Assembly (NCBI RefSeq): GCF_040907265.1
Contig: NZ_JBFOHP010000002.1
Span: forward strand, 2,256,501-2,320,500
DNA: 64,000 nucleotides
Direction: 5' to 3'
Source: Streptomyces sclerotialus
GTDB taxonomy: Bacteria > Actinomycetota > Actinomycetes > Streptomycetales > Streptomycetaceae
The position numbers and the translations under genes were made by a program. Of the stretch, positions 6,238 through 56,266 are shown piece after piece; positions within the stretch are counted from its first letter, which is position 1, and every line of letters starts with the position of its first letter. The notes beneath the pieces are model-generated. The model was not told the DNA's origin. It was given only the letters and a program-made list of their open reading frames with translations, and made no database searches.

Positions 6238-6260
6238 ACCCTACTGGTGACCACTGACAA
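6238..6260 (-). promoter_or_regulatory. RecA-NDp/PafBC-type promoter of uvrC
   Basis: Reading the minus strand: TTGTCAGTGGT, six bases, TAGGGT, then seven bases and the uvrC ATG. This matches the actinobacterial LexA-independent DNA-damage promoter (TTGTCAGTGGC-N6-TAGGGT), known to be used by PafBC. The distance from the -10 box to the ATG puts the transcription start on or next to the start codon, predicting a leaderless mRNA; there is no proper SD. Confidence 0.85.
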
Positions 6261-6299
6261 CCCGGGCACAGGTGAGCACACCGGCCGGCGCATGTGGAG

Positions 6300-6341
6300 G
6301 GCCCCGGCCCGCGGCGGGATGCGTCGCAGGGGGCCGGGGCC
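6300..6341 (-). terminator. Hairpin downstream of the protease/membrane-protein operon
   Basis: An 11-bp perfect inverted repeat (GGCCCCGGCCC at 6300-6310 with its complement at 6331-6341, 20-nt loop) lies between the end of the 6402-7872 operon and the uvrC promoter. It has no T run, which is common for Streptomyces terminators. The function is inferred from position. Confidence 0.5.
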
Positions 6342-6401
6342 GGTACGGGGGTGGCGCCGGAGCCGCTCACGGAAGCCGGTACGGGCGGCTGCCGGGCGCG
6401 G

Positions 6402-7250
6402 TCAGCGGCGCAGACTGCGGGAGACGAGCGCGCCGCCGACGGCCAGCACGACCACGGTGCCCAGCGCGGTCAGCACCGCGACGAGCGGCCCGCTGTCCCC
6501 GGTGGTGGCCGCCGCGACCGGCTGGGCTGCCGGCGCCGCGGCCGGACGGTCCGCAGCGGCGCCGGAGGCCCCGGTGGTCTTCCCGTAGCCGCCGGCCTCC
6601 CCGCGCCGGTCGTACGCCGAGCCGGGGAGCTTGTCGCCGTACGCGGCGTGCACCCGCTTCTGGTACGCGGCGACCGTCGTCCCGGACGCGCCGACCGCCC
6701 GCTTCGCGTCCGCGTCCAGCGGCAGGACGCGGTCCCCGCGCTGGGCGTACCAGGCGTCGATCTGCGGCTCGCGGAAGAGCGTGCCGCCCACGGCCCTGGC
6801 CTTGGCCGCGTACGCCGTCTCGTCGGCGCCGGTGGCGATGTTCACCACCCGCCAGGCGTCCGCGCCCCGCGGCCGTACGGTCCACACCGACGCCTCCCGG
6901 CCGTCGGTGGAGACGGCCTTGCTGGCGAGGAAGCCGAGCTTCGCGACCGGGGCGCCGGAGCGGCCGCGCACGAAGTCCGGCGACAGCACGTAGACGGGTA
7001 CGGTGGCGCCTTCGATGCGCGGCGCTGCCGCCTTGACGCCCGCCTTGCCGTCGCGGGCGAAGAAGCGCGCGAGGGTCTCCAGCGTGTCCGGCGCGGTAGC
7101 CGCCTCGTGGGCCGCGGCCACGCTCGCCGCGGCCGGCGCCCTGGGCGGTGCGGGGGTGTCGGCGGCCAGGGCGGCCTGCGGCGCGAGGGCGGCGAGTGCG
7201 GTGGCCAGCGCCGCGGTGACGGCGCCCCGCTTCACGTTCCGGTGCGTCAT
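6402..7250 (-). CDS. Secreted protein with C-terminal membrane anchor, partner of the adjacent protease
   Basis: I do not recognise a named family. The 282-residue protein starts with a Sec signal peptide (charged MTHRNVKRG, hydrophobic core, cleavage near ALA-A at residues 28-30). It has an Ala-rich extracytoplasmic domain and ends in an Ala/Pro-rich linker and one hydrophobic segment (about residues 253-275) followed by SRSLRR, so it is probably tethered to the outer face of the membrane. It starts 4 bases after the stop of the upstream papain-like protease gene and must be cotranscribed with it. The pairing suggests a substrate, docking or propeptide-like partner, which is inference only. 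Confidence 0.8.
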   Translation of the reverse strand: MTHRNVKRGAVTAALATALAALAPQAALAADTPAPPRAPAAASVAAAHEAATAPDTLETLARFFARDGKAGVKAAAPRIEGATVPVYVLSPDFVRGRSGAPVAKLGFLASKAVSTDGREASVWTVRPRGADAWRVVNIATGADETAYAAKARAVGGTLFREPQIDAWYAQRGDRVLPLDADAKRAVGASGTTVAAYQKRVHAAYGDKLPGSAYDRRGEAGGYGKTTGASGAAADRPAAAPAAQPVAAATTGDSGPLVAVLTALGTVVVLAVGGALVSRSLRR

Positions 7251-7254
7251 CGCC

Positions 7255-7872
7255 TCAGGCTCCGATCCGGTAGAGGGAGTGCGTCCAGGAGAACTCGCTG
7301 CCGTTGACGTAGTAGCGGTAATCGCCCCAGTTGTAGCGGTTGTTGTCGGGCCAGGGGTCGCCCCAGTACACCCAGTTGTCCGCGGTGTCGAAGCCGTACA
7401 GGACGTGCATGTGGCCGCCCCCGGAGGACCACCGGATGCGGGTCTCCACGGGCCTGTTGGCGTTGATCTCGCTCTGTACGGTGCTGTACTTCAGGTAGCC
7501 GCTGACGTAGCTGCCGGGGTTGATGCCGGCCCAGTCGAGGCCGTTCTGCACGTCTCCCAGCGTGGCCTGGCTGTTGGGACAGGTGGTGCCTTGCTGCCGC
7601 CCGAAGGAGGCGTTGCAGAACTGGTTCTGGCTGTAGTTCCGGCCGAACCAGGCGGCGATGGTGTTGCCGGAGGCCGCCCAGCACCAGTTGCTGTTCTGCT
7701 GGGCCTGCATCGTGATGTTCAGCTTCTTGCTGCCGAGCGCGGTGTCGGGGGCGGCCGTCGCCGTCGCGGCGGGGAAGCCGGTGAGGACGGCGGCGACGGC
7801 CGCGATCAGGGGCCATCTGCGGCGCGTTGCGCGGGTACGGCACGAGCGTGTGCGGCGGGACGGGCGGTGCAT
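7255..7872 (-). CDS. Secreted papain-like cysteine protease (AvrRpt2/C39-like)
   Basis: A 205-residue exported protease of the papain-like clan. An Arg-rich n-region and hydrophobic stretch (residues 20-40, ending ATATA-AP) form a signal peptide. The catalytic Cys is in QQNSNWCWAASG (Cys64), the His in SGGGHMHVLYGFD (His154), and the Asp in WGDPWP (Asp172), in the order and spacing of the Papain_like_cys_pep/AvrRpt2 group. Two further cysteines (Cys86, Cys98) could form a disulphide. First gene of a two-gene operon with the membrane-anchored protein 4 bases downstream. Substrate unknown. Confidence 0.85.
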   Translation of the reverse strand: MHRPSRRTRSCRTRATRRRWPLIAAVAAVLTGFPAATATAAPDTALGSKKLNITMQAQQNSNWCWAASGNTIAAWFGRNYSQNQFCNASFGRQQGTTCPNSQATLGDVQNGLDWAGINPGSYVSGYLKYSTVQSEINANRPVETRIRWSSGGGHMHVLYGFDTADNWVYWGDPWPDNNRYNWGDYRYYVNGSEFSWTHSLYRIGA

Positions 7873-8076
7873 GGCGGTCCTCCCGAGGGGGGTGGGAAGA
7901 GGGAGAGGAACGCATCCGGATGATGCTGAGGAGCATCAGGTGTTGTCCGGGGCAGGTCAACACGCTTCAATGCGAGATGACGCGGGGGTGTGGACGGACG
8001 GGCCCTGATGTGAACGTCCCCTGCCCGGCGATCTGCGAGGAACGGACAGCGCCAGCGGGACGTGTGAACTCCGGTT

Positions 8077-8088
8077 GTGAACGTTCAC
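8077..8088. promoter_or_regulatory. Palindromic operator candidate GTGAACGTTCAC
   Basis: A perfect 12-bp palindrome 22 bases before the start codon of the downstream HTH-like gene. The half-site TGTGAAC occurs three times in the same direction, at 8009-8015, 8063-8069 and 8076-8082. This looks like an autoregulatory site, but the link to the adjacent protein is inferred. Confidence 0.5.
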
Positions 8089-8110
8089 CCCGCGCACCGG
8101 AGGGTTGGCA

Positions 8111-9049
8111 ATGGCACAGGACACCGCCGCATCGGACGGGCTGGCGCAGGTGCTGCGCACCGGGCCGTTCCACCTGGCCCTCCGGGTCGCGCTCGCCGAA
8201 CGCGGGCTCGCCCTGCACCGCGTGCAGTACAAGCTCGCGCAGCGCGGCATCAAGGTCGGCGTCACCAGCCTCAGTTACTGGCAGCAGGGCGCCCGCCGCC
8301 CGCAGCGCCCCGAGTCGCTGCGCGCGGTGACCGCGCTGGAAGAGGTGCTGGAGCTGCCGGACGGCGCGCTGACCCGGCTGCTGGAGTCGCAGACCCCGGT
8401 GTACCCGGACGTGGAGCGCCCCACGGGCCGGTCGTACCGCACCCTGACCGAGGACTCCGAGGTGGTGCGCAAACTCCTCGCCGACCTGGGCGCCCCCACG
8501 GACGGCGGGCTGCACACCGTGGGGCAGTCGGAGCGGGTACGCATCGGCGCGCGGCGCGAGCTGCTGGACCGCGAGTCGCAGCACGTGGTGCGCGCGCACC
8601 GGGACGGCATCGACCGGTACGTCGCCATCCACTGCGGCGACGAGGGCGCCGACCCGGCCCGGATGGCCGTCCGGGCCACGGAGAACTGCCGGGTGGGCCG
8701 GGTGCGGTACGTCCCCGAAGCGCCGCTCGTGGTCGCCGAGCTGCTCTTCGACACCCGGCTGCGGGCCGGCGACACGTACGTCTTCTCCTACGGGTTCCGC
8801 GACGGCACCGCCGGCGAGAGCACGGAGTACCTGCGCGGCTTCCCCTTCCCCGGCGGGCAGTACGTCCTCCAGGTCCGCTTCGACGAGGCGGCGCTCCCCG
8901 TACGCTGCGGCCGCTTCGCCCAGGCGACGACGGCCGCGCCCCGTACGGCCCGCCAGGACCTGACCCTCACGGGTCAGCACCGCGCCGTCCACCTGGTCGA
9001 CCAGTCGGTACGCCCGGGCCTGCTCGGCATCGAATGGGACTGGGGCTGA
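8111..9049 (+). CDS. HTH-like DNA-binding protein with C-terminal sensor-like domain
   Basis: A 312-residue protein common in streptomycetes without an experimentally assigned role, as far as I know. Residues about 20-75 resemble an XRE-type helix-turn-helix (ALAERGLALHRVQYKLAQRG, then SLSYWQQGARRPQRPES). The rest is a beta-rich region that may bind a ligand or partner. The ATG at 8111 has GGAGGG six bases upstream and is preferred over the TTG at 8105. The palindrome just upstream fits autoregulation. It is divergent from the secreted protease operon, so it could regulate that operon as well. Confidence 0.75.
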   Translation: MAQDTAASDGLAQVLRTGPFHLALRVALAERGLALHRVQYKLAQRGIKVGVTSLSYWQQGARRPQRPESLRAVTALEEVLELPDGALTRLLESQTPVYPDVERPTGRSYRTLTEDSEVVRKLLADLGAPTDGGLHTVGQSERVRIGARRELLDRESQHVVRAHRDGIDRYVAIHCGDEGADPARMAVRATENCRVGRVRYVPEAPLVVAELLFDTRLRAGDTYVFSYGFRDGTAGESTEYLRGFPFPGGQYVLQVRFDEAALPVRCGRFAQATTAAPRTARQDLTLTGQHRAVHLVDQSVRPGLLGIEWDWG

Positions 9050-9135
9050 GCCCTTCGGGGCGGGCGCGGCCTTCGGGTGCTGCGGGCCACGCCTTCGGGA
9101 CGCGTGCGGCTCAGCCCTTCGGGGCGGGCGCGGGC

Positions 9136-9564
9136 TCAACCCGCGATCAGCTTGCCGCCCTCGACCTTCACCGGCACCTCTTCCAGCGGCGTGGTCGCCG
9201 GGCCGTGCACCGGCTTGCCGGTGGCCACGTCGAACCGGCTCCCGTGCAACGGGCAGGTCGCCACTTCCTTGTCGAGCGCGTTCAGGACCGCGCCCGCGTG
9301 CGTGCACACCGAGCTGAAGCACTTGAACTCGCCCTTCGCAGGCTGCGAGACGACCAGCTTCTCCTCGGGGTAGAGCTTGGCGCCGCCCACCGGTACGTCG
9401 GCGGCGGCGCCCAGCTCCGTCTCCTGGGTGGGCGCCTTCGGGACCGAGCCCGACCCCGACCCCGACCCCGAGCCGCCCGTGGAGCACGCGGCGGCGCCGA
9501 CGCACGCGATGCCCGCGAGCGCGGCCCCTCGCAGCACGGTACGGCGGTGGAGGGGCTCACTCAT
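9136..9564 (-). CDS. Rieske (2Fe-2S) lipoprotein
   Basis: A small exported iron-sulphur protein of 142 residues. The N-terminus has a twin-arginine-like motif (HRRTVLRG, residues 6-13) and a lipobox-like GAAAC with Cys27, followed by a Gly/Ser-repeat linker. It is therefore probably folded in the cytosol, exported by Tat and lipid-anchored. The Rieske ligands are CTHAG (Cys87, His89) and CPLHGS (Cys104, His107). I chose the ATG at 9564 because AGGAG lies 8 bases upstream; the ATG at 9570 is too close. Electron partner unknown; it stands alone here. Confidence 0.9.
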   Translation of the reverse strand: MSEPLHRRTVLRGAALAGIACVGAAACSTGGSGSGSGSGSVPKAPTQETELGAAADVPVGGAKLYPEEKLVVSQPAKGEFKCFSSVCTHAGAVLNALDKEVATCPLHGSRFDVATGKPVHGPATTPLEEVPVKVEGGKLIAG

Positions 9565-9637
9565 GGTCATGACTCCTGCGTTCCGAAGGCGGGATGCCTC
9601 CCCCGGGGTGCGCGCCCCTCACGGGACGCGCGCGCTC

Positions 9638-11062
9638 TCAGGGGCCGGCGCTGCTTCCCGACGATACCGGGACGGAATCCGCGCCCCCGGCCAGGTCCGC
9701 CTTACCCCGCAGCAGGTCCTGCTCGATCGCCTCCAGACTGCGCCCCTTGGTCTCCGGGAGCAGCTTCCGCACGAACACGAAGGCGAGGAAGGTCATCACC
9801 GCGAAGAAGAGGAAGTTGGCGCCCGCCCCGAAGGTGTCCAGGAGCGAGGGGAACGCCAGCGCGACCACCATGTTGAACAGCCAGTTGAAGATCACGCACA
9901 GGCTGACCGCCGCGGCCCGCAGCCGCATGGGGAACAGCTCGGGCAGCATCACCCACTGCACCGGCCCCCAGGAGACGGCGAACGACGCGATGTAGAGGCC
10001 GATGCCGAAGAGCGTGAGGGTGGACAGCAGCGCACCGTAGCCCAGCCCGCTCAGGTTGGTGACGGCCAGCAGCACCATCGCGGCACACATGCCCAGCGCG
10101 CCCCAGAGGAGCAGCGGCTTGCGCCCCCTGTGGTCGATCAGCCGCATGGCGGGCAGCGTCATCAGCATGTTCAGCGCGCCCACCCCCATGGTGGCGATGA
10201 TCGCGCCGCTGTCCCCGAAGCCGACGTTGGTCAGCAGCCGCGGCGCGTAGTAGATGATCGTGTTGATGCCGACGAAGTTCTGGAAGAACACCAGCAGCAT
10301 CCCGACCACGAACACCGGCCGCAGCCTCGGCGACAGCAGATGCCTGAAGGTGAGGCTCTCGGTCTGCTCGCGCTCGGTCCGTACGGTCTCCTCGATCTCC
10401 GCCAGTTCGGCCCGGGCCGCATCGCCCTCCCCGCGCAGCTGGAACAGCACCCGCCGCGCCTCGTCGCCGCGTCCCTTGCCGACCAGCCAGCGCGGGCTCT
10501 CCGGCTGCGTGATGATGCCGACCGCCAGCACCGCCGCCGGCACGACGCCGAGCCCGATCATCCAGCGCCAGGCGCCGGAGTCGTGGAAGAGGTAGTCGGT
10601 GAGGTACGCGAGGAAGATGCCGACCGTGACCAGCAGCTGCATCAGCGAGGCCAGCCCGCCGCGTACGTGCTTGGGCGCCAGCTCGGTCAGGTACAGCGGG
10701 ACGACGACGGACGCGATGCCGACGCCGATGCCGAGGACGAACCGGAAGACGATCAGCGCCCAGACGTGCGTGGCGAGCGCCGCGCCGAGCGTGCCGAGGA
10801 TGAAGACCCCGGAGGCCGCGAGGATCAGCCGCCGGCGGCCCCAGGAGTCCGACAGCCGCCCGGACAGGCCCGCGCCCAGCATCGCGCCGACCAGCAGCCC
10901 GGAGACGACCATGCCCTCCAGCAGCGGGGTCATGGGGATGTCACGCTTGATGTAGAGCAGCGCCCCGGAGATCACGCCCGTGTCGTAACCCCACAGGATG
11001 CCGCCGAGCGCGCCGAAGACCCAGATCAGCGCGTTCTTGAGGCGGGTCGACACGGCGCTCAC
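9638..11062 (-). CDS. MFS sugar porter family transporter
   Basis: A 474-residue major facilitator permease with 12 predicted membrane segments and the sugar-porter signatures: GRLSDSWGRRR between TM2 and TM3, PESPRWL before the central loop, and a C-terminal PETKGRSLE. It likely imports a monosaccharide or polyol by proton symport. The GTG start overlaps the stop of the upstream dehydrogenase gene as GTGA, so both are translated from one mRNA. With the divergent LacI repressor and PfkB kinase it makes a sugar or polyol uptake and catabolism module; the substrate cannot be read from the sequence. Confidence 0.92.
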   Translation of the reverse strand: MSAVSTRLKNALIWVFGALGGILWGYDTGVISGALLYIKRDIPMTPLLEGMVVSGLLVGAMLGAGLSGRLSDSWGRRRLILAASGVFILGTLGAALATHVWALIVFRFVLGIGVGIASVVVPLYLTELAPKHVRGGLASLMQLLVTVGIFLAYLTDYLFHDSGAWRWMIGLGVVPAAVLAVGIITQPESPRWLVGKGRGDEARRVLFQLRGEGDAARAELAEIEETVRTEREQTESLTFRHLLSPRLRPVFVVGMLLVFFQNFVGINTIIYYAPRLLTNVGFGDSGAIIATMGVGALNMLMTLPAMRLIDHRGRKPLLLWGALGMCAAMVLLAVTNLSGLGYGALLSTLTLFGIGLYIASFAVSWGPVQWVMLPELFPMRLRAAAVSLCVIFNWLFNMVVALAFPSLLDTFGAGANFLFFAVMTFLAFVFVRKLLPETKGRSLEAIEQDLLRGKADLAGGADSVPVSSGSSAGP

Positions 11063-12066
11063 CCCTTCTTCTGCGGAGCGATGTGGATCTTGCGGCCGGT
11101 ACCGGCCTTGAAGCGGGCGACGGCCTCGTCGAAGTCCTCCAGCCCGAAGACGTCGCTGACCAGCGGGTCGAGGTCGAGCCCGGAGGCGAGTACGTCGATG
11201 GCGGGCTGGAAGCTGTTGTGCACGGCCATCGACCCGATGATGTCGATCTCGCTGTTGTAGACGAGGTACGGCGAGAACGCGGCCTTACGGGACGGGTCCG
11301 TCACACCAAACTGCAGGAACGTTCCGCCCTTGCGGACGCGTCCCAGCCCGTCCTCGATGGCGGGCACCGCCCCCGTGGCGTCGACCACCACCTCGAAGCC
11401 CGGCCCCTTGCCCAGCGCGAGCTTGTCCGCGCTGGTCACAGCCGCGTCCAGGCCGAACGACTCGGCGAACGCCAGCCGCTCCTCGTTCAGGTCCACCACC
11501 GAGACGGAGGCGGCGCCCGCGGTCCGTACGAGCGCGGCCATCATCAGGCCCATCGTGCCCGCACCGTAGATCAGGTAGTGCTCACCGGGGCGGCGCGGCA
11601 GCCGGTTCAGCCCGTGCACCGCGCAGGAGAGCGGCTCGATCAGACCCGCCGCCGCCTCGGAGAAGGACGCCGGGATCACGTAGCAGCAGCGCGCCGGGAC
11701 GGCCACCCGCTCGGCGAAGCCGCCGGCCTGGGTGACACCGATCGCCCGGTAGTCCTCGCAGAGGTTGCCGCGGCCGATGCGGCAGTAATGACAGGCGCCA
11801 CAGGGCATGTTCGGGTCCACCGCGACCCGGTCACCGACGGCCGGCACGGCGACGCCCTCGCCGACCGCGACGACCTCACCGGTCAGCTCGTGGCCGGGGA
11901 TCACCGGGTACGTCACGGGCGGCAGCTCACCGCCGAGGATGTGCATGTCCGTCCCGCACAGGCCGCACGAGGAGACGCGGACGACGACCTCGCCGGGTTC
12001 AGGCCGGGGGTCCGGCACGTCGGCCGGGGCGGCTCGGCCCGGCTCGGTGACCACGACAGCGCGCAT
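11059..12066 (-). CDS. Zinc-dependent medium-chain dehydrogenase (polyol/sugar dehydrogenase type)
   Basis: A 335-residue medium-chain dehydrogenase that probably oxidises a polyol or sugar alcohol to a ketose with NAD(P). Catalytic zinc ligands are visible as Cys37 (SCGLCGTD) and His59-Glu60 (PGHE). The structural zinc site has the four cysteines 89, 92, 95 and 103 (CGACHYCRIGRGNLC). A Rossmann motif (YGAGTMGLM) follows near residue 167. It overlaps the downstream sugar porter by 4 bases. It closely resembles arabinitol, sorbitol or xylitol dehydrogenases; the exact substrate is uncertain. Confidence 0.9.
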   Translation of the reverse strand: MRAVVVTEPGRAAPADVPDPRPEPGEVVVRVSSCGLCGTDMHILGGELPPVTYPVIPGHELTGEVVAVGEGVAVPAVGDRVAVDPNMPCGACHYCRIGRGNLCEDYRAIGVTQAGGFAERVAVPARCCYVIPASFSEAAAGLIEPLSCAVHGLNRLPRRPGEHYLIYGAGTMGLMMAALVRTAGAASVSVVDLNEERLAFAESFGLDAAVTSADKLALGKGPGFEVVVDATGAVPAIEDGLGRVRKGGTFLQFGVTDPSRKAAFSPYLVYNSEIDIIGSMAVHNSFQPAIDVLASGLDLDPLVSDVFGLEDFDEAVARFKAGTGRKIHIAPQKKG

Positions 12067-12292
12067 ATCGCGCCTCCACTTCGTTGTGCTGCGGCTTCTG
12101 GGTGCTGCGGGCCCCCGGTGCTGCGGCTGCGCCGCGTCCCGCCCGAGGGCCCGTACCGGAACCCCTGCCGGGGCTCCGTACCAAGGCTTTCAGCCGGGGC
12201 TCCGTACCAGGGCTCCGTCGCACCCGGTCATCGGGAGCTCCGTCGCCCCCGGTGACGGAGAGTCCCCTCGCGCCTCGGCTCGCGGGCGGGTA

Positions 12293-12344
12293 CTTCGTCG
12301 CACCTCGGTTGCGGGGAGCTTCGTCGCACCTCGGTTGCCGGGAG
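12293..12344. repeat. Tandem 26-bp direct repeat in the dehydrogenase-lacI intergenic region
   Basis: Two back-to-back 26-bp units (12293-12318 and 12319-12344), beginning CTTCGTCGCACCTCGGTTGC and differing at one base. Looser related repeats (GGGGCTCCGTACC) occur around 12170-12230. They lie between the divergent dehydrogenase and lacI genes, just upstream of the LacI operator. Confidence 0.8.
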
Positions 12345-12355
12345 GCTAGCCCGCA

Positions 12356-15956: not shown

Positions 15957-19064
<3,108 letters not shown>

Positions 19065-19634
19065 GCCGGTCGGCACCTTTCGTGAGAGGGGCGGGGTGCC
19101 GCGCACCCCCGCCCCAGGGTATGGGGGCCGCCGCGGCAATGTCTGTTCAATGTCGTTTCGATGCCACACACGAGCCTATAGCACGTGCATTCGATTTACG
19201 GTCTCCGCCGACCGGGTTCACCCGAAGGTGTGGCCGAACGGCGCGCCACTGACGCGAAGGCGTCGGTGGCTCCGGCGCACGGGCACCGGGCGGCCTGCTG
19301 CACAGTGGATCCGGCCGCCTGGCGACGCCCTGCCGAACACCCGGTCACGACCGCGCCGGACGCCGGAACCCACCGCGCCATTCACCGTAACTCCGGGGTC
19401 TGACAACGCCGGGTCCCGAACCGCTCGCACCGCCGATGACCTGCACATACGCTCCCGACCCCTGGAGCACGTCCCGACCTGGAGGACGCCTGACCCCCGG
19501 CTCCGACGTCCTCCCCCTCAACACCGCGGGCGGCCCGTCCCTTCCCCTCGGCGCGTGCCCGGACCGCTGCGCGCTCCCGGCTGCCGACGCGCGCCGACTC
19601 CCGCTGCAACGTCGGCGGCGCTAGCTTCGGTCCC
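19065..19634. other. uvrA-isomerase divergent intergenic region
   Basis: 570 bases without a convincing gene. It should hold the uvrA promoter (minus) and the promoter of the 19635 gene (plus). On the plus strand TAGCTT ends 7 bases before the ATG at 19635, which would allow a leaderless start, but I see no good -35. I found no clear LexA box or damage-promoter motif for uvrA here. Confidence 0.4.
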
Positions 19635-22533: not shown

Positions 22534-24675
22534 CTACTTCAGCCCTGCTTCCCTCATCTGGCGCAGCTCCTTCTTCAGCTCGCCGACCTCGTCGCGCAGC
22601 CGGGCGGCGACCTCGAACTGCAGCTCAGCGGCGGCCGCCCGCATGCGGTCGGTCATCTCCTCGATCATCTCGGCGAGCTCGGCGGCGGGCCGGTCCGTCG
22701 GCACGGCGCCGCCCTTGCCCTTCGCCCCCTTGCCGGCCTTCTCCGCCGCGCCGCCCAGCGCGGGCACCGGCGCCTTGCCCTTGGCGTCCTTCCCGTCGGC
22801 CGCCTTGCGGTACCCGGTGCCCAGCAGCTCCTGCGTGTCGACCTCTTCACGCGCGATCGTCGCGACGATGTCGTTGATCTTCTTCCGGAGCGGCTGCGGG
22901 TCGATGCCGTGCTCCTTGTTGTACGCGAGCTGCTTCTCGCGGCGCCGGTTGGTCTCGTCGATGGCCTTGGCCATCGCCGGGGTGACCTTGTCGGCGTACA
23001 TGTGCACCTGGCCCGAGACGTTACGCGCCGCGCGGCCGATCGTCTGGATCAGGGACGTACCGGACCGCAGGAAGCCCTCCTTGTCGGCGTCGAGGATCGC
23101 CACCAGGGAGACCTCGGGGAGGTCCAGGCCCTCCCGGAGGAGGTTGATGCCGACCAGGACGTCGTACTCGCCGGCCCGCAGCTCGCGCAGCAGCTCCACG
23201 CGGCGCAGCGTGTCCACGTCGCTGTGGAGGTAGCGCACCTGGATGCCGAGCTCCAGGAAGTAGTCCGTGAGGTCCTCGGCCATCTTCTTGGTGAGCGTCG
23301 TCACCAGGACGCGCTCGTCCTTCTCGGTGCGCGTACGGATCTCGTGGACCAGGTCGTCGATCTGCCCGTCGGTGGGCTTGACCACGACCTCCGGGTCGAC
23401 CAGGCCGGTCGGGCGGATGATCTGCTCGACGTGGCCGTCGGCGCGCGAGAGCTCGTACTGACCCGGTGTCGCGGAGAGGTAGACGGCCTGTCCGATCCGC
23501 TCCTGGAACTCCTCCCACTTCAGCGGCCGGTTGTCCAGCGCCGACGGCAGCCGGAAACCGTGGTCGACCAGGGTCCGCTTACGGGAGGCGTCGCCCTCGT
23601 ACATCGCGCCGATCTGCGGCACGGTGACGTGCGACTCGTCGATGACCAGGAGAAAGTCCTCGGGGAAGTAGTCGAGGAGGGTGTTCGGCGCCGTGCCGGG
23701 CGCGCGGCCGTCGATGTGCAGCGAGTAGTTCTCGATGCCGGAGCAGGTGCCGATCTGGCGCATCATCTCGATGTCGTACGTCGTACGCATCCGGAGCCGC
23801 TGCGCCTCCAGCAGCTTGCCCTGCTTCTCCATCGTGGCGAGCTGGTCGGCGAGCTCGGCCTCGATGCCGGCGATCGCCTTCTCCATGCGCTCGGGGCCCG
23901 CCACGTAGTGGCTCGCGGGGAAGACGTACAGCTGCTGGTCGTCGCTGATGACCTCGCCGGTGAGCGGGTGGAGGGTCGACAGCGCCTCGATCTCGTCGCC
24001 GAACATCTCGATGCGGACGGCCAGCTCTTCGTAGACCGGGAAGATCTCGATGGTGTCGCCGCGCACCCGGAAGGTGCCGCGGGTGAACGCCATGTCGTTC
24101 CGTGTGTACTGGATGTCCACGAAGCGGCGCAGCAGCTGGTCGCGGTCGATCTCCTCGCCGACCTTCAGGGGGACCATCCGGTCGACGTACTCCTGGGGCG
24201 TGCCCAGGCCGTAGATGCAGGAGACGGACGAGACCACGACCACGTCCCGCCGGGTGAGCAGCGAATTGGTCGCGGAGTGGCGCAGCCGCTCGACCTCTTC
24301 GTTGATCGAGGAGTCCTTCTCGATGTACGTGTCGGACTGCGGGACGTACGCCTCGGGCTGGTAGTAGTCGTAGTACGAGACGAAGTACTCGACGGCGTTG
24401 TTCGGCAGCAGCTCGCGGAATTCGTTGGCGAGCTGGGCCGCGAGGGTCTTGTTGGGCGCCATGACGAGGGTCGGGCGCTGCAGCTTCTCGATCATCCACG
24501 CGGTCGTCGCCGACTTGCCGGTGCCGGTCGCGCCCAGCAGGACGACGTCCTTCTCACCGCCGCGGATGCGCTGCTCCAGCTCGGCGATGGCCGCCGGCTG
24601 GTCGCCGCTGGGCTGATACGGGCTGACGACCTCGAAGGGCGCCACCGTGCGTTCGATCTGGGAAACGGGCCGCAT
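22534..24675 (-). CDS. uvrB: Excinuclease ABC subunit B
   Basis: The helicase-like subunit that verifies the lesion and recruits UvrC. The 713-residue protein has Walker A GATGTGKS at residues 48-55, the beta-hairpin region with YYQPEAYVP, the DESH motif ([11 protein letters not shown]), helicase motifs V/VI (QTIGRAARN) and a C-terminal UVR motif that contacts UvrC. Before the UVR motif lies a Lys/Ala/Gly-rich linker of about 40 residues (KGAKGKGG), longer than usual. The ATG at 24675 follows the -10 box of a damage-inducible promoter by 7 bases, so it should be translated from a leaderless mRNA; no SD is present. Confidence 0.97.
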
Positions 24676-24682: not shown

Positions 24683-24705
24683 ACCGTACGACCCGCCACT
24701 GACAA
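24683..24705 (-). promoter_or_regulatory. RecA-NDp/PafBC-type promoter of uvrB
   Basis: On the minus strand TTGTCAGTGGC, six bases, TACGGT, seven bases, then the uvrB ATG. The upstream element is identical to the published consensus of the LexA-independent damage promoter. The -10 to ATG distance predicts a leaderless transcript. Confidence 0.85.
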
Positions 24706-26075: not shown

Positions 26076-26098
26076 TTGTCAGTGGGCGGTCCTAGGCT
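26076..26098 (+). promoter_or_regulatory. RecA-NDp/PafBC-type promoter of ogt
   Basis: TTGTCAGTGGG, six bases (CGGTCC), TAGGCT, six bases, then the GTG of ogt at 26105. It has the same architecture as the uvrB, uvrC and polA promoters and again predicts a leaderless mRNA. Confidence 0.85.
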
Positions 26099-26104: not shown

Positions 26105-26737
26105 GTGACGATTTCCGAGGAACGCGAAATCCCCGCGGCGACCGCCGCCGAGGGCGGCGGGACGGCCCCGGCGACCACGGGCGAGGTTCCGCAGGCGCCG
26201 GCCCGGCCGCCGCGCGACTGGGCCTGGCGGATGCTGGACTCCCCCATCGGTCCGCTCCTGCTCGCGGGCACCGGCACCGGCCTGGCCCTGGTCGTCTTCC
26301 ACGCCGACGAGCGGGCCCGGGCCCGCTCGCTCGCCCGGCTGCGCGGCGCGTTCGGCCCCGAGCCGGTTTCCGCGATACCGGCGGTGGACACGGCAGCCGT
26401 GGAGCTCGTCGCGTACTTCGCGGGTGAACTGCGGGACTTCACGGTGCCGCTGGACTGGTCGCTGTCCTCGGGGTTCAACGAGCGGGTGCTCCGCGAGCTC
26501 GCCACCCATGTCCCGTACGGCACGGTCGTCGGCTATCAGGATTTGGCGGACCGGGTCGGCGAGCCGGGGGCCGCTCGTGCGGTCGGCGCCGCCATGGGCT
26601 CCAATCCCCTGCCGGTCGTCGTGCCGTGTCACCGCGTCGTCGAGAGCGGCGGCGGACTCGGCGGCTTCGGCGGCGGCCTGGAGACGAAGCGGCAGCTCCT
26701 CGCGCTGGAAGGAGTGCTCCCTCAGCCGCTGTTCTGA
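26105..26737 (+). CDS. ogt: Methylated-DNA--protein-cysteine methyltransferase
   Basis: A suicide enzyme that removes methyl groups from O6-methylguanine in DNA onto its own cysteine. It has 210 residues; the acceptor motif VVPCHRVV has Cys175, the recognition helix FNERVLRELATHVPYGTVV precedes it, and GSNPLP and GLGGFGGGLETKRQLL complete the family pattern. A Pro/Ala/Gly-rich leader of about 37 residues precedes the conserved domain. The GTG at 26105 is the position predicted by the damage-inducible promoter 6 bases upstream. Confidence 0.94.
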   Translation: MTISEEREIPAATAAEGGGTAPATTGEVPQAPARPPRDWAWRMLDSPIGPLLLAGTGTGLALVVFHADERARARSLARLRGAFGPEPVSAIPAVDTAAVELVAYFAGELRDFTVPLDWSLSSGFNERVLRELATHVPYGTVVGYQDLADRVGEPGAARAVGAAMGSNPLPVVVPCHRVVESGGGLGGFGGGLETKRQLLALEGVLPQPLF

Positions 26738-50162: not shown

Positions 50163-50298
50163 TCAGGGGTGCTCCGGGACGGTGGTCAGCAGCAGTTCGG
50201 GGGACGTGCGTCCTTCGGGACGCGCCGACGGCCGTGACAGCGAGGACCAGGGCGAGGGCGGCGGCCAGTCCGATGGCGGCTGCTGTGAGGGCACGCAT
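50163..50298 (-). pseudogene. SPW_0924-like small membrane peptide with a probable one-base frameshift
   Basis: ATG 50298 has GGGAGG six bases upstream and opens with a hydrophobic segment (MRALTAAAIGLAAALALVLA, then VTAVGA). In frame the sequence turns into Arg/His-rich text, but the next frame reads PEGRTSPELLLTTVPEHP and a stop at 50163, the kind of tail I recall for the short SPW_0924 family of Streptomyces. Removing the single T (an A on the plus strand near 50220) would join the two parts. The family identification rests on memory of its sequence and needs a search. Confidence 0.5.
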
Positions 50299-50454
50299 GC
50301 TCGGCCTCCCGTTCGACTGCGGTGATTCTCCACCGACCTGACGACGCGTCAGCGGCCCGGGCCGGTGCACCGTAGCAACGGGCGGCAGAGATGAGAACAC
50401 CTTGCGCCGACGAGGACGCCGGACCCGGCACGAAGACGCGAGGACCGGCATACG

Positions 50455-50488
50455 GAAGGGGCGCGACGGCTTCCCGTCGCGCCCCTTC
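50455..50488 (-). terminator. 15-bp stem terminator of the transglycosylase gene
   Basis: A perfect 15-bp stem (GAAGGGGCGCGACGG, 4-base loop, complement at 50474-50488) begins 20 bases beyond the stop codon of the lytic transglycosylase on the minus strand. Confidence 0.85.
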
Positions 50489-50508
50489 GCTGCTTACCGG
50501 TGCGGGGG

Positions 50509-52353
50509 TCAGCCCACCTTCAGGTCCACCAGGAGCACGGCCCCGCCGGCCGTGGTGAGCCGGAGCTTGTACGTCCCGGGGTGGTCGTCGGTGAAGATCT
50601 CGGGCAGCTTCAGCAGGCCGTCGGCATCGGTCTTCAGGCCGGCGAGAGTGCGCAGCGGCGCCCCCTTGGCGTCCTTGAAGTACGGGCCTTCGGTGCTCTG
50701 TTCCGCCTTCGCGGGGTCCGCCGCGTCTCCGGCGATCACCGTCGCGGTGACGGCCACGCCTGCCGCGGCCTTGCCCTGGTAGGTCGCCTTCACCTCGACG
50801 GCGTCGGCGTAGGAGGCTTCGGCCGCTGCCTGCAGCTGCTTGTCGGAGGTGCGGGCGAGGGCGTCGGCCTGCGGCCTGGCCTTGACGGTGACGGTGAAGT
50901 CGGTGGCCGGTACGGCGCGGCCCACGGCCGTCGCGCGGACGGTGTACGTCCCGGCCTTCTCGCCGGCGGTCAGGGCGGGCGCGGTGGCGATGCCTTCCTT
51001 GTCGGTGGTGACGGTGACCTTGGCGGCGCCGCCCTCGAAGCGGGTGTCGCCGTCGCCGCGTATCTCGTACTGCACCTTCACGCCGGAGACCGTGCGGTCC
51101 GCGGTGTTCTCCGCGCGGACCTGGAGCGGGTCGGCGAACGTCTCGCCGGCGGTCGCGCTCCGCTCCTTGGCACCGAGGCGTTCCAGGGAGGCGAGCGGTG
51201 CGGGCGGGGTGGGCGCGGGGGGCTTCGTGGGCGTCTCGTTGTTGCCGCCCGGCGTCGTGCCGGGGGACGAGCCGTCGTCCGTGCCGCTGCCGGGCTCGGA
51301 GCCCGGGGAGGAGCCGCCGGTGCCTGGCTCGGGACTGGGGCCGGGCTTCGTACCGCCGTCGGAGCCGGATCCGCCGCCGGACTGCGCGTCTTCGCCGTCC
51401 TTTCCGGAGTCGGTGTCCTTCCCCGGGGTGGTGCCCTTCCCGGCGCTCTCCCGGTCCTTGGTCCTGTCCGCTGCGTCGCCGGTCTTCCGGTTGCCGGAGC
51501 CGCTGCCGGAACCACCGTTCCCACCGCCCGAGTCGTTCGTGCGCGGCCCGGTCGGCAGGACGCCGGCGCCGTCGGGCACCTCGTGCGTGCCCTTGCGGTA
51601 GAACTCGTACCAGGACAGCACCGTGCGCAGGTATTCCTCGGAGTGGTTGTAGCCGAGGATCGCGCGGTTCAGGTCTGCCGGTACCGACAGGTCGCGGTCG
51701 GCGGCGCAGAGGTAACGGCCGGCCGAGAGGGCCGCGTCGTAGATGTTGTCGGGGTCGCTCGCGCCGTCGCCGTTGGCGTCCGTGCCCCACACCGCCCAGG
51801 TGGACGGGATGAACTGCATCGGGCCGACCGCACGGTCGTGCGTGGTGTCGTTGTCGAAACGGCCGCCGTCGGTGTCGGTGATCCGGGCGAAGCCGTTGCC
51901 GTTGAGCTGGGGGCCGAGGATGGGTTGCAGGGTCGTGCCGTTCGCGTCGACCGCGCCGCCGCGGGCCTGCCCGGACTCGACCTTGCCGATCGCGGCGAGC
52001 AGCTGCCAGGGCAGCTTGCAGCCGGGGTGGGTCTGCGCGAGGGAGGCCTCGGCCTGCTTGTACGCGGCGAGCACGGTCGCCGGTATGCCGGACTCCATGG
52101 GGCCGGTGGCTAGGGGGCCGTCCCCGCCCTTCCCCTTGCCGGGCGGCTGCGGACTGCCGAGCGGGGGCAGGTCGGTGAAGTACGAGGAGCCGCCGTCGAT
52201 CGGGGTGTCGCCCCGAGGGGCGTCCCGGGAACTGCTGCCCGCGGCCTCGGCGGCGTCCGGCGCCTGGGAGGCGGTGAGCGCGGCGAGGGCCAGCGCCGCC
52301 ACCACACTGGAGGCCGCTCCTCTGCGGAGCCGTCGGCCGAACTTGGCTGCCAT
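50509..52353 (-). CDS. Secreted lytic transglycosylase with C-terminal Ig-like domains
   Basis: A 614-residue exported enzyme that cleaves peptidoglycan glycan strands. It has a signal peptide (RRLRRGAASS, hydrophobic core, AEAAG, residues 1-36) and an SLT catalytic domain near residues 80-260 with catalytic Glu in IGKVESGQARGG. The substrate-site motifs RAVGPMQFIPSTWAVWG and ILGYNHSEEYL follow. A Gly/Ser/Asp/Pro-rich linker of about 120 residues (TDSGKDGEDAQSGGGSGSDG type) leads to two bacterial Ig-like or invasin-like domains that resemble wall-binding modules. ATG 52353 has GGAGTAGGA upstream. Own terminator at 50455. Confidence 0.92.
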   Translation of the reverse strand: MAAKFGRRLRRGAASSVVAALALAALTASQAPDAAEAAGSSSRDAPRGDTPIDGGSSYFTDLPPLGSPQPPGKGKGGDGPLATGPMESGIPATVLAAYKQAEASLAQTHPGCKLPWQLLAAIGKVESGQARGGAVDANGTTLQPILGPQLNGNGFARITDTDGGRFDNDTTHDRAVGPMQFIPSTWAVWGTDANGDGASDPDNIYDAALSAGRYLCAADRDLSVPADLNRAILGYNHSEEYLRTVLSWYEFYRKGTHEVPDGAGVLPTGPRTNDSGGGNGGSGSGSGNRKTGDAADRTKDRESAGKGTTPGKDTDSGKDGEDAQSGGGSGSDGGTKPGPSPEPGTGGSSPGSEPGSGTDDGSSPGTTPGGNNETPTKPPAPTPPAPLASLERLGAKERSATAGETFADPLQVRAENTADRTVSGVKVQYEIRGDGDTRFEGGAAKVTVTTDKEGIATAPALTAGEKAGTYTVRATAVGRAVPATDFTVTVKARPQADALARTSDKQLQAAAEASYADAVEVKATYQGKAAAGVAVTATVIAGDAADPAKAEQSTEGPYFKDAKGAPLRTLAGLKTDADGLLKLPEIFTDDHPGTYKLRLTTAGGAVLLVDLKVG

Positions 52354-52560
52354 ACGTCCTACTCCCCCTCCGCGTTGACCCACCGCGCTGGATGCACGGT
52401 GTCGCGCTCTCGGCGCTCCAACGCACGCGACACTACGACAACTCCCCCCGCGCAGCTACCGTTCCCGGCTGGCCGTCACCGTCTGCGCACATCCGGCATA
52501 CTGCCTCGAACCGATCACTCGATCATGCACAGCGGTCGGGGGTCGGTCAGGAGGGGGATC

Positions 52561-53412
52561 ATGCCGTTCACACTCAGTCATGCCGCGGCGGTGCTGCCTG
52601 CCCTACGCCGCGACGGTACGGCACGCGGGCCGCTGCTGGCGTCCGCTCTCGTCGCCGGTTCCTTCGCGCCGGATCTGACGTACTTCGCGGACACGGCGGT
52701 GCCGGGCGCGATGGCGTTCGGAGAATTCACGCACACGCCGGCCGGTGTTCTCACCGTGGACACGCTCTGCGCCGCGCTGCTGGTCGGAGTCTGGCTCCTG
52801 CTGCGCGGTCCGCTGCTCGCGCTGTTGCCGGCGGCGTGGCAGCAGCGCGGTTGGGCGCTGGTGCGCGGCCGGGACTGGCGCAGCCTGTCACGCGGGCAGC
52901 TCGCGGTCCGCTTCTGGTGTTCCGCGGTGCTGGGCGCGCTCACGCACATCGTGTGGGACGCGTTCACGCACCCCGGGCGCTGGGGCGTCCGGCTGCTGCC
53001 CGTACTGCAGGAGTACGCCGGCGGATGGCCGGTGTACGCCTACGTGCAGTACGGCACTTCGGCGGTGGCGCTGGTGGCCCTGGCCTGGTTCGTACGCTCC
53101 GCGCTCCGCCGGGCACCGCGCGCCACCGCGCCCGCAGCGCTGCCCGTGCTCGGCCATCGGGCGCGGCTGTGGTGCGGCGGGCTGCTGACGCTGTGCGTAC
53201 TGCTGGGCGCCGGACATCGGGTGCTGCGGGCGCACGCGGTGTACGGCGGGTCGGCGACGTGGTTCGACTACGTGCCGACGGTGCTCTTCGGTGCGGGCGC
53301 CGGGCTGGGGGCGGGGCTTCCGGTGTGGGCGGCGGCGGTCCACCTCCGCGACCGCCGGCGCCGCCGTACGCAGGCCGCCGCTCCGGCGGAGGAGACGGCG
53401 GCCGGGGGCTGA
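52561..53412 (+). CDS. DUF4184 family membrane protein
   Basis: A 283-residue integral membrane protein of the DUF4184 family. The conserved opening MPFTLSHAAAVLPALRRDG, the FAPDLTYF motif and the histidine-containing GALTHIVWDAFTH resemble the metal-dependent hydrolase-like membrane proteins of the YdjM/LexA-regulated type. Five to six hydrophobic helices are visible. GGAGGGG lies 4 bases before the ATG. It converges on polA. Function not established. Confidence 0.88.
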   Translation: MPFTLSHAAAVLPALRRDGTARGPLLASALVAGSFAPDLTYFADTAVPGAMAFGEFTHTPAGVLTVDTLCAALLVGVWLLLRGPLLALLPAAWQQRGWALVRGRDWRSLSRGQLAVRFWCSAVLGALTHIVWDAFTHPGRWGVRLLPVLQEYAGGWPVYAYVQYGTSAVALVALAWFVRSALRRAPRATAPAALPVLGHRARLWCGGLLTLCVLLGAGHRVLRAHAVYGGSATWFDYVPTVLFGAGAGLGAGLPVWAAAVHLRDRRRRRTQAAAPAEETAAGG

Positions 53413-53500
53413 TCCGGACACGCTCGTCCGGACCGGTCCCCGGCCGCCTTCCGCAGTCGCTGCGCCACGGCGCCTTACGCGATCAGTGCGCGTGACGCGC

Positions 53501-56236
53501 TCAGTGCGCCGCGGACTCCCAGTCCCCGCCCGAGCCGACGGAGACGTCCAGCGGGGCACGGAGCTCCACGGCGCCGGCCATCTCGCGCCGCACCAGCTCC
53601 TCGACCTGCTTCTGCTCGCCGGGCGACACCTCGACCACGATTTCGTCGTGGACCTGGAGCAGCATCCGGGAGCTGAGCCCGGCGGCGGTCAGCGCCTCGT
53701 CGACGCGCAGCATCGCGATCTTGACGATGTCCGCCGCGGTGCCCTGGATCGGGGCGTTCAGCGCCATCCGCTCGGCCATCTCGCGACGCTGGCGGTTGTC
53801 GCTGTTGAGGTCGGGGAGGTAGCGACGACGCCCGAGCATGGTCTCGGTGTAGCCCGTGGCCCGGGCCCGGTCGACGACCTCCTGGAGGTAGTCCCGCACG
53901 CCGCCGAAGCGCTCGAAGAAGTTGTCCATGAGCTTGCGGGCCTCGTCCGGGCTGATGCCCAGCTGCTGGGACAGGCCGAACGCGGACAGGCCGTACGCCA
54001 GCCCGTACGACATCGCCTTGATCTTGCGGCGCATCTCGGGGTCGACCTCGGTCTTGGGCACCGAGAAGACGTGCGAGGCGACGGTGGTGTGCAGGTCCTC
54101 ACCGGAGGTGAACGCCTCGATGAGGCCCTCGTCCTCCGAGAGGTGCGCCATGACGCGCAGCTCGATCTGGCTGTAGTCCGCGGTCAGCAGCGTCTGGTAG
54201 CCCTCACCGACCACGAAGCCGCGGCGGATGGCGCGGCCCTCGTCGGTCCGCACGGGGATGTTCTGCAGGTTGGGGTCCGTGGAGGACAGCCGGCCGGTCG
54301 CCGCCACCGTCTGGTTGAAGGTGGTGTGGATGCGGCCGTCCGCGGCGATGGTCTTGATCAGGCCCTCGACCGTCGTGCGCAGCTTGGCCTGCTCACGGTG
54401 GCGCAGCATGATCACGGGCAGTTCGTTGTCGGTCTGCGCCGCGAGCCAGGCGAGGGCGTCCGCGTCGGTGGTGTAGCCGGTCTTGGTCTTCTTGGTCTTC
54501 GGCAGGCCCAGCTCGTTGAAGAGGACTTCCTGGAGCTGCTTGGGCGAGCCGAGGTTGAACTCGTGTCCCGCGGCGGCGTGCGCCTCGGTGACGGCCTGCT
54601 GGACCGCGGCGGCGAACTGCTGCTCGATGCGCTCCAGCCAGCCGCGGTCGGCGGCGATGCCGGAGCGCTCCATACGGGCCAGCAGCGCGCTGGTGGGCAG
54701 CTCGATGTCGCGCAGCAGGTCGGCGGCGCCGACCTCCTCCAGGCGCGTCTCGAAGGCGGCACCGAGGTCGAGGACCGTACGGGCCTTGGTCATCAGGGCC
54801 TCGGCCTCGGCCTGCTCGTCGGCGCCGAAGGCCAGCTGTCCGTCACCGGCCGCGACGGGGGCCAGGTCACGGCCGAGGTACTCCACGGAGAGCGCGTCGA
54901 GGGCGAAGGAGCGCCGGCCGGGCTTGACCAGATAGGCGGCGAGGGCGGTGTCCATGGTGACGCCGTCGATGTGCCAACCGTGCTCGGGGAAGATCCGCAT
55001 CAGGCCCTTGGCGTTGTGCATCACCTTGGGGCGCTGCGGGTCCGCGATCCACTCGGCGAAGGCCCGGTCGTCGGCCTCGTCGAGCTGGGTCGGGTCGAAC
55101 CAGACGGCGGGGCCCGCGGTGGTCGCCAGCGCGACCTCGGCGGCCGAGCCGCTGCCCAGCTTCCAGGAGTCGACCGTGGCGACGCCGAGGAGGCTGCTGC
55201 CGTGCTCGGCGAGCCAGGGAGCGAGCTGCCCAGCGCCCGCGACGAGGCCGTCGATCTCGACGCCCGGCAGCGGCTCCTCGGTGACCGTGTCCTCCGCTCC
55301 GGGGTCGACGGCCAGCAGGCGGTCGCGCAGGCCCTGGTTACGGATCTCCAGTCCCTCCAGGAACACCGTGAGGGCCTGCCGGTCGTAGCCCTCGCGCACC
55401 AGCTCGGCGGGGCCGCAGGGCAGCTCGACGTCGCGGACCATCTCGGTCAGGCGGCGGTTGAGCCGCACGGCCTCCAGGTGGTCGCGGAAGTTCTGCCCGG
55501 CCTTGCCCTTGACCTCCTCGGCGCGCTCGCACAGCTCCTGGAAGGAACCGAACTGGTTGATCCACTTCGCGGCGGTCTTCTCGCCGACACCGGGGATGCC
55601 GGGGAGGTTGTCCGACGGGTCGCCGCGCAGGGCGGCGTAGTCCGGGTACTGGGCGGGGGTGAGGCCGTACTTCTCGAACACCTTCTCCGGGGTGAAGCGG
55701 GTCAGCTCGGAGACGCCCTTGGTGGGGTAGAGCACCGTGACATGCTCGCTGACCAGCTGGAAGGCGTCCCGGTCGCCGGTGACGATGGACACCTCGAAGC
55801 CCTGCTCGGTGGCCTGCGTGGCGAGCGTGGCGATGATGTCGTCCGCCTCGAAGCCGTCGGTCGCGAACCGCTTCACGTGCATGGCGTCCAGCAGCTCACC
55901 GATCAGCTCCACCTGCCCCTTGAACTCGTCCGGGGTCTTGGAACGATTGGCCTTGTAGTCGGGGAACTCCTCCGACCGCCAGGTCTTGCGCGAGACGTCG
56001 AAGGCCACCGCGAAATGGGTGGGCGCCTCGTCGCGCAGGGTGTTCGCCAGCATCGAGGCGAAGCCGTACACGGCATTCGTCGGTTGCCCCGTGGCGGTCG
56101 TGAAATTCTCCGCGGGCAGGGCGAAGAACGCCCGGTACGCCATGGAGTGCCCGTCCATCAGGAGCAGCCGGGGACGCCCTCCCCCCGCCGTCTCGCTGCC
56201 GGTCGTTTCGCTCTTCTTCGCTGCCTTTGCTGCCAC
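53501..56236 (-). CDS. polA: DNA polymerase I
   Basis: Fills gaps in repair and removes RNA primers. The 911-residue protein has the N-terminal 5' nuclease (DGHSMAYRAFFALP, DEAPTHFAVAFD, GFEADDIIATLA), a middle 3'-5' exonuclease-like domain, and the family A polymerase with motif A ADYSQIELRVMAHLS, motif B MSYGLAYGLSAFGL and motif C LLQVHDEIVVE. The exonuclease domain lacks the metal-binding Asp-x-Glu of motif I (VATVDSWKLG instead), as in other actinobacteria, so proofreading is presumably absent. The GTG at 56236 lies 7 bases after the -10 box of a damage-type promoter and is preferred over ATG 56266. Confidence 0.97.
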   Translation of the reverse strand: MAAKAAKKSETTGSETAGGGRPRLLLMDGHSMAYRAFFALPAENFTTATGQPTNAVYGFASMLANTLRDEAPTHFAVAFDVSRKTWRSEEFPDYKANRSKTPDEFKGQVELIGELLDAMHVKRFATDGFEADDIIATLATQATEQGFEVSIVTGDRDAFQLVSEHVTVLYPTKGVSELTRFTPEKVFEKYGLTPAQYPDYAALRGDPSDNLPGIPGVGEKTAAKWINQFGSFQELCERAEEVKGKAGQNFRDHLEAVRLNRRLTEMVRDVELPCGPAELVREGYDRQALTVFLEGLEIRNQGLRDRLLAVDPGAEDTVTEEPLPGVEIDGLVAGAGQLAPWLAEHGSSLLGVATVDSWKLGSGSAAEVALATTAGPAVWFDPTQLDEADDRAFAEWIADPQRPKVMHNAKGLMRIFPEHGWHIDGVTMDTALAAYLVKPGRRSFALDALSVEYLGRDLAPVAAGDGQLAFGADEQAEAEALMTKARTVLDLGAAFETRLEEVGAADLLRDIELPTSALLARMERSGIAADRGWLERIEQQFAAAVQQAVTEAHAAAGHEFNLGSPKQLQEVLFNELGLPKTKKTKTGYTTDADALAWLAAQTDNELPVIMLRHREQAKLRTTVEGLIKTIAADGRIHTTFNQTVAATGRLSSTDPNLQNIPVRTDEGRAIRRGFVVGEGYQTLLTADYSQIELRVMAHLSEDEGLIEAFTSGEDLHTTVASHVFSVPKTEVDPEMRRKIKAMSYGLAYGLSAFGLSQQLGISPDEARKLMDNFFERFGGVRDYLQEVVDRARATGYTETMLGRRRYLPDLNSDNRQRREMAERMALNAPIQGTAADIVKIAMLRVDEALTAAGLSSRMLLQVHDEIVVEVSPGEQKQVEELVRREMAGAVELRAPLDVSVGSGGDWESAAH

Positions 56237-56243
56237 GCCCCCG

Positions 56244-56266
56244 ATCCTGCCACGCCCCACTGACAT
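56244..56266 (-). promoter_or_regulatory. RecA-NDp/PafBC-type promoter of polA
   Basis: On the minus strand ATGTCAGTGGG, six bases, CAGGAT, seven bases, then the polA GTG. It is slightly weaker than the uvrB, uvrC and ogt copies (A for T at the first base, CAGGAT for TAGGNT) but has identical spacing, including the leaderless arrangement. Confidence 0.75.

Follow-up and report, generated by a model that had tools for sequence, protein, structure and literature searches.

Four DNA-repair genes in a 64,000-nucleotide stretch of the Streptomyces sclerotialus genome (the window in what follows), uvrC, uvrB, ogt and polA, each lie directly behind a promoter of the RecA-NDp class, on which the regulator PafBC acts, with the start codon where the transcript itself would be expected to begin. 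We put the probability at roughly three in four that these genes are driven by a PafBC-type promoter and that their mRNAs are leaderless. The element, its spacing, its conservation, the initiator context and the genes for a PafC-type and a further WYL protein were computed here, and from them we infer the transcript starts, induction by damage, binding of PafBC and mode of translation.

Four repair-gene promoters ending at the start codon

Promoters of the RecA-NDp/PafBC class carry a TGTC(A/G)GTGG-type element about 7 nucleotides (nt) before a TANNNT-type -10 hexamer. By direct reading, the promoter of uvrC (minus strand) is TTGTCAGTGG-N7-TAGGGT-N7-ATG, that of uvrB (minus) TTGTCAGTGG-N7-TACGGT-N7-ATG, that of ogt (plus) TTGTCAGTGG-N7-TAGGCT-N6-GTG and that of polA (minus) ATGTCAGTGG-N7-CAGGAT-N7-GTG. 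All four share TGTCAGTGG, a spacer of 7 nt, the -10 hexamer and a gap of 6 or 7 nt ahead of the start codon, which is directly preceded by C in every case. The coordinates (Table 1) and the gaps of 7, 7, 6 and 7 nt are those of the original prediction, whose six-base spacer, counted after GGN, is the same as N7 after GG; its description of the -10 as TAGGNT-like fits uvrC and ogt and is loose for uvrB and polA. The distance from element to -10 that characterizes the class is found at all four sites, polA having a C at the first -10 position, and the four promoters are ordinary members of this known class. The identities of the genes as UvrC, UvrB, Ogt and DNA polymerase I hold by NCBIfam.

Table 1 Features of the window and the upstream recA start; window coordinates unless a locus is named
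Feature	Position	Strand	Remark
uvrC PafBC/RecA-NDp-type element TTGTCAGTGG	6251..6260	-	
uvrC -10 hexamer TAGGGT	6238..6243	-	7 nt before ATG 6228-6230
uvrC coding sequence, predicted leaderless	4134..6230	-	NF001824, 1123 bits, from residue 1
uvrB element TTGTCAGTGG	24696..24705	-	
uvrB -10 hexamer TACGGT	24683..24688	-	7 nt before ATG 24673-24675
uvrB coding sequence, predicted leaderless	22534..24675	-	NCBIfam
ogt element TTGTCAGTGG	26076..26085	+	
ogt -10 hexamer TAGGCT	26093..26098	+	6 nt before GTG 26105-26107
ogt coding sequence, predicted leaderless	26105..26737	+	TIGR00589
polA element ATGTCAGTGG	56257..56266	-	
polA -10 hexamer CAGGAT	56244..56249	-	7 nt before GTG 56234-56236
polA coding sequence, predicted leaderless	53501..56236	-	NF004397
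uvrA coding sequence (GTG 19062-19064), leadered counter-example	15957..19064	-	SD-like (Shine-Dalgarno-like) GAAAGG upstream, no PafBC-type -10
recA upstream in-frame start	L041:2462-2500 (own genome); also L244-L274, L325-L332, L367, L376, L400		

The exact 9-mer occurs in the window at these four sites only. A strict form of the pattern (TAKNNT) gives two matches, uvrC and ogt, against none in 100 shuffles, while the bare 9-mer with one mismatch allowed shows no enrichment in the window (12 found against 11.3 expected). The claim that the promoters are independent of LexA is borne out in so far as the single exact GAACN4GTTC box of the window, at 51509, is far from all four, degenerate boxes not being excluded by this count. 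The assignment to PafBC likewise holds up at the level of the genome, which in addition to the element has seven WYL-domain matches, two of them adjacent, one with the PafC helix-turn-helix domain PF19187 at 107 bits; the second WYL/WCX protein, which adjoins the PafC-type protein, is taken to be PafB.

Adaptation of the sigma factor by PafBC is known from mycobacteria, and leaderless initiation without a Shine-Dalgarno sequence is common in actinobacteria. In the mechanism that we propose, the promoter core is fused to each of the four genes. DNA damage would activate PafBC, upon which the housekeeping holoenzyme would use a promoter where TGTC/GTGG replaces a good -35 element; RNA polymerase would initiate at the first base of the start codon, an A or G, and the ribosome would begin on the 5' terminal AUG or GUG without Shine-Dalgarno pairing. 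If the RNA starts at the codon as predicted, there would be nothing upstream of it that could hold a Shine-Dalgarno sequence. The repair mRNAs may in this way be translated by a leaderless route during damage. For mycobacteria, PafBC is reported to be activated by damage and to be placed between its element and sigma region 4 (PMC6789036, PMC8223512, PMC11804915, PMC10936776).

Start-codon gaps across the genome

The 22-mer TGTCAGTGG-N7-NANNNT has 52 matches in the 8.28-Mb genome, against one for the reversed pattern. When every ATG or GTG with an open frame of at least 50 codons was scored in the flanks of all 52 sites, a start codon was found 6-7 nt after the -10 at 27 of them and 4-8 nt after it at 32. 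We then pooled 118 sites, consisting of these 52, 28 taken one per genome over the class, and 18 and 20 from two genomes of the same genus (G016 and G063). Framed starts at gaps of 6, 7 and 8 nt number 21, 35 and 10 in this pool, against about 2.7 per position elsewhere, so that gaps of 6-7 nt account for 56 starts where 5.4 would be expected from the other positions. By group, such gaps occur at 27/52 sites of the own genome, 14/28 of the class, 5/18 of G016 and 10/20 of G063. Two sites with less than 200 nt downstream (L061, L095) and one duplicate were dropped before counting; the count takes in 20 of the 29 listed G063 sites and a single site from each class genome, and none from G035, G050 or G076.

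Initiation of transcription prefers a pyrimidine at position -1, and a C or T directly precedes the codon in 50 of the 56 pooled leaderless-type sites, compared with 227 of 479 other ATG or GTG triplets 12-150 nt downstream (p = 5e-10). In mapped S. lividans transcripts the distance from the -10 to the start averages 6.3 nt and is within 5-7 nt in 88.7% of cases, and the first base of leaderless starts is a purine in 97.1% (PMC8079986); by this calibration, a gap of 6-7 nt places the transcript start on or beside the codon. That transcription starts at the initiator codon, as originally proposed, is accordingly a prediction from spacing, in keeping with the codon at the expected +1, the pyrimidine before it and the spacing in orthologues.

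Repair genes outside the window with a gap of 6-7 nt include those for DNA polymerase IV, exonuclease VII, an Lhr-type helicase and an AlkZ-like glycosylase, with a DNA polymerase III delta-like protein at 8 nt and a DinG/YoaA-type helicase at 9 nt; ferrochelatase, an ABC transporter and mycothiol enzymes have the same 6-7 nt gap and no known tie to repair. At one locus (L034, G000:C2:4981413-4981494) two divergent PafBC-type sites lie about 60 bp apart, one 7 nt ahead of the gene for an unnamed protein that weakly matches SWIM and the other 64 nt before an AAA ATPase.

Two other promoter classes were scored in the same genome with the same filter. A sigma-HrdB-like pattern (TTGACA-N17-TANNNT) has a start codon at 6-7 nt in none of 8 matches. 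A sigma-R-like pattern (19 matches, none when reversed) has one in 2 of 19, and in 3 of 19 at 4-8 nt; as it ended one base past GTT, its gaps are shifted by one, and the count at 5-6 nt is also 2 of 19. The difference between 27/52 PafBC-type sites and 2/27 controls is significant (Fisher test, p = 7e-5), and the own-genome share also exceeds the published leaderless shares of 21.0% in S. coelicolor (PMC4895711) and 17% in S. lividans (PMC8079986), with binomial p values of 9e-7 and 9e-9, respectively.

Conservation in orthologues

For each gene, the best-matching motif was sought near the starts of orthologues, the own genome being counted in each set. Of 30 uvrB loci (the best 30 of 58 genomes of the class with a match), 27 have an in-frame start codon at a gap of 6-7 nt from the -10, with 27 distinct gap sequences; a start at this gap also occurs in 22 of 30 polA and 24 of 30 uvrC loci (30 of 31 genomes of the family each). 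The mean motif scores, out of 12, are 9.8, 10.4 and 8.5 for uvrB, polA and uvrC, against 6.9, 6.9 and 7.1 in upstream control stretches. For ogt, a recognisable motif was found in 9 of 23 homologous loci, 8 of which have an in-frame start at 6-7 nt; the other 14 have no motif. In this genome the geometry of the four promoters is more frequent at PafBC-type sites than in either of the other promoter classes scored, and orthologues preserve it; selection appears to maintain the spacing itself and not the letters of the spacer.

Exceptions and alternative explanations

Several observations weigh against a general coupling of PafBC control to leaderless transcripts. The genome scan with the start codon fixed at +1, which had been proposed as a check, leaves 25 of the 52 own-genome sites without the geometry, and two of the 27 that have it (L032, L048) have doubtful frames; G016 shows it in just 5 of 18 sites. 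Within the same window uvrA has a leader, and the closest site resembling the element, CGTCAGTGG at 19246-19254, is not followed by a -10 at a suitable distance. The element is present before ruvC (L012) and a uracil-DNA-glycosylase-like gene (L007), each of which nevertheless has a leader. The sigma-HrdB-like control is weak, since its 8 matches compare with 4 for the reversed pattern and up to half may be chance. In published work, the RecA-NDp start of M. tuberculosis Rv1955 maps to a point 49-50 nt upstream of the start codon (PMC2897130), and a first search for the M. smegmatis PafBC motif in S. venezuelae gave no sign of its conservation (PMC9380542). The fixed leaderless geometry of the original prediction consequently stands for all four genes and fails as a fixed rule for the regulon. 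The leaderless prediction for these promoters is well supported and covers about half of the own-genome sites.

The strongest alternative is that leaderlessness belongs to the genes and not to PafBC control, leaderless core promoters being kept while PafBC elements come and go. It draws on uvrC, where the -10 stays 6-7 nt before the start in the 24 of 30 family loci mentioned above although only 14 of 30 reach a full motif score of at least 9 of 12. The spacing of uvrC outlives a degraded PafBC element, so leaderlessness is not strictly tied to PafBC, and the predicted leaderlessness of uvrC is, to judge from these loci, older or stronger than its control by PafBC. Leaderless transcripts also make up 17-21% of all those mapped in Streptomyces (PMC8079986, PMC4895711). 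As a general explanation we nonetheless regard it as rather unlikely, because the spacing also occurs before quite different genes, namely ferrochelatase, an ABC transporter and, at 7-8 nt, IrrE-like phage proteases, and because the sigma-HrdB-like and sigma-R-like promoters of the genome, albeit small sets, do not show it. Alternatively, transcripts could start further upstream, with the AGG or GGG in the -10 hexamer, some 9 nt before the codon, serving as a Shine-Dalgarno sequence. The distance would suit uvrC, ogt and polA, but uvrB has TACGGT, several other such sites read TACTCT, CACACT or TAAAGT and offer no Shine-Dalgarno sequence, and the pyrimidine at -1 suits a site of initiation, whereas a Shine-Dalgarno sequence does not need it; we give this explanation little chance. 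Finally, although start codons are frequent in GC-rich DNA (the background of 2.7 framed starts per position in the 118 sites), chance or an artefact of start-codon choice is contradicted by the 21 and 35 starts at positions 6 and 7, the shuffles, the reversed patterns and the conservation in orthologues, and can practically be set aside.

The PafBC-type promoters of ruvC and of a thymidine-kinase-like frame (upstream of which L043 lies) have a similar GC-rich leader beginning GCTGAGCAGGGG; an Rfam scan of these two loci and of the own-genome recA locus (L041) gave no match. In L071, L073, L074 and L076, a LexA-type box (CGAACAGATGTTCG) follows directly or shortly after a PafBC-type -10, in L073 some 220 nt upstream of recA, and dual control is possible for such an arrangement. 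In two of these, from small-genome relatives (L071, L073), the start codon lies within the box and was at first taken as leaderless; we rejected this, as L073 and a G021 site lie about 200 nt before recA, so that an ordinary SOS box is likely.

A predicted longer RecA in Streptomyces

Applied to recA, the geometry points to a start upstream of the annotated one, which in Streptomyces we take to be MAGTD. The RecA of the own genome is up to 95% identical to that of named Streptomyces. In the family Streptomycetaceae (30 of 31 genomes with a match at the cut-off), all 30 loci have an ATG or GTG 7-8 nt after the -10, in frame with the body of RecA and with no stop in between. With one more locus of the genus, this start precedes the downstream ATG by 36 nt in 28 of 31 loci and by 39 nt in 3. 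The 36-nt form yields 16 distinct peptides, all of which fit [M/V]KR..Q..[R/K], 12 of them with VE after that last residue, and 38% of the codon differences are synonymous when read in the RecA frame, compared with 10% and 8% for the remaining two frames (18 distinct sequences from 37 of 40 loci, the 3 of another length being left out). These features predict a RecA that would be 12-13 residues longer than the MAGTD form, with a basic MKR or VKR beginning.

Over the class, an in-frame start at 6-8 nt is found in 10 of 28 recA loci. We further scored 54 of 80 named or labelled loci (leaving out L378-L399 and L401-L404), 7 of which have no recognisable RecA start. The upstream start is present in all 11 Streptomyces among them, and also in all three Micromonospora and one Actinocatenispora, where the motif scores are weak (8-9 of 12); one Propionibacteriaceae record with a 5-nt gap is doubtful. 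Another 26 of the 54 look leadered, including Gordonia, Nocardia and one of two Mycobacterium, and 5 have no clear motif, the other Mycobacterium record included.

The same unit before phage protease genes

In the IMG/VR contigs there are at least 122 instances of the motif, and 16 of the matches listed have a start at 6-7 nt; many of the remaining instances are taken as chance. Matches led to small HExxH proteins (L419, L426, L490, L499, L522), whose counterparts in 263 named phage records, 220 of them Gordonia phages, are annotated as IrrE-like protein, peptidase or metalloprotease, sometimes as helix-turn-helix or hypothetical protein. As Pfam gave no family for the two HExxH proteins scanned, and NCBIfam none for two from named phages, the name IrrE-like rests on the record annotations and the HExxH motif.

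We sampled 22 records of Mycobacterium and Gordonia phages (L525-L546; 9 from the list of best matches and 13 from a list spread over the matches, with 33-74% protein identity to the query), leaving out 3 of 16 spread matches (H31, H32, H46) and 21 of the best 30. These phages are related to one another, and the 22 records have 18 distinct upstream stretches. In 21, the exception being GMA4, a PafBC-type unit precedes the IrrE-like gene with an in-frame start codon at 7 nt (13 records) or 8 nt (8 records), the latter gap slightly exceeding the commonest host gaps. The units have a mean score of 10.0 of 12, against 6.6 in control stretches, and three carry TACGAA in place of a full -10. The annotated start of the protease is the predicted codon in 18 of the 21, dwieneke, Confidence and ZiggyZoo being annotated elsewhere. 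In 9 of 22 the annotation of the gene directly upstream is that of an immunity or transcriptional repressor, and an integrase lies within the fetched stretch in 15 of 22. By analogy with IrrE/DdrO and ImmA/ImmR, PafBC may induce the phage protease, which may then cleave the repressor; a literature search, with subscription papers largely outside it, found no report of such a link between PafBC, protease and repressor.

Two further viral gene groups show the same unit with an ATG at 6-7 nt: YqaJ-like recombinase genes (L413, L456, L475, the first of them matched by Pfam) and the gene for a small unnamed protein found in low-GC viral contigs (L425, L450, L453, L462, L482, L508, L524).

Relation to known systems

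Our analysis joins two known facts, PafBC promoters and leaderless mRNAs, in that the promoter, where the geometry holds, tells the start of the protein. The rule predicts start codons, with a longer RecA in Streptomyces and perhaps in Micromonospora, and suggests how prophages could sense damage to the host independently of LexA; the rule and these two predictions are the strongest new content. It also bears on the open question of the motif in S. venezuelae (PMC9380542), as TGTCAGTGG-N7-TANNNT recurs, with 9 to 35 matches per genome and none for the reversed pattern, in six genomes of one genus, the own genome included and S. venezuelae not among them. More tentatively, one could speculate that the combination of a PafBC-type promoter and a start codon at +1 forms a portable unit of damage expression. 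Such a unit would fix protein starts such as that of the longer Streptomyces RecA, and temperate Mycobacterium and Gordonia phages would have captured it in front of a gene for an IrrE/ImmA-like protease, in many cases next to the immunity repressor; host damage registered by PafBC, independently of LexA, would then lead to cleavage of the repressor and prophage induction.

The promoters described for RecA-NDp/PafBC in actinobacteria have the same element, -10 spacing and repair genes, including recA, uvrA and uvrC, and in their accessible text these descriptions make no mention of start codons at +1 (PMC8223512, PMC6789036). In a literature search pairing PafBC with leaderless, the latter word was seen, in the text available, only within a reference title. 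The closest precedent is the macrodomain gene SCO6735 of S. coelicolor, which has an ultraviolet-inducible RecA-NDp promoter and whose printed primer, as we read it, contains the same unit with the -10 6 nt before the ATG; that report concerns a single gene, and its available text has no occurrence of the word leaderless (PMC5087735). From the other side, leaderless Streptomyces transcripts have, as here, a TANNNT -10 mostly 5-7 nt before a purine start with the codon at +1 (PMC8079986, PMC4895711). Surveys of these transcripts point to membrane and TetR-type regulator genes in one case and to no gene-ontology group in the other, and the term DNA repair is absent from the accessible text of both (PMC4895711, PMC4681348). 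As for the phage proteases, IrrE of Deinococcus cleaves the repressor DdrO after radiation (PMC5552922), and ICEBs1 has an ImmR/ImmA tandem (PMC8960796). Unlike in IrrE/DdrO and ImmA/ImmR, the protease gene of the sampled phages itself lies behind a PafBC-type promoter, with its start codon near +1.

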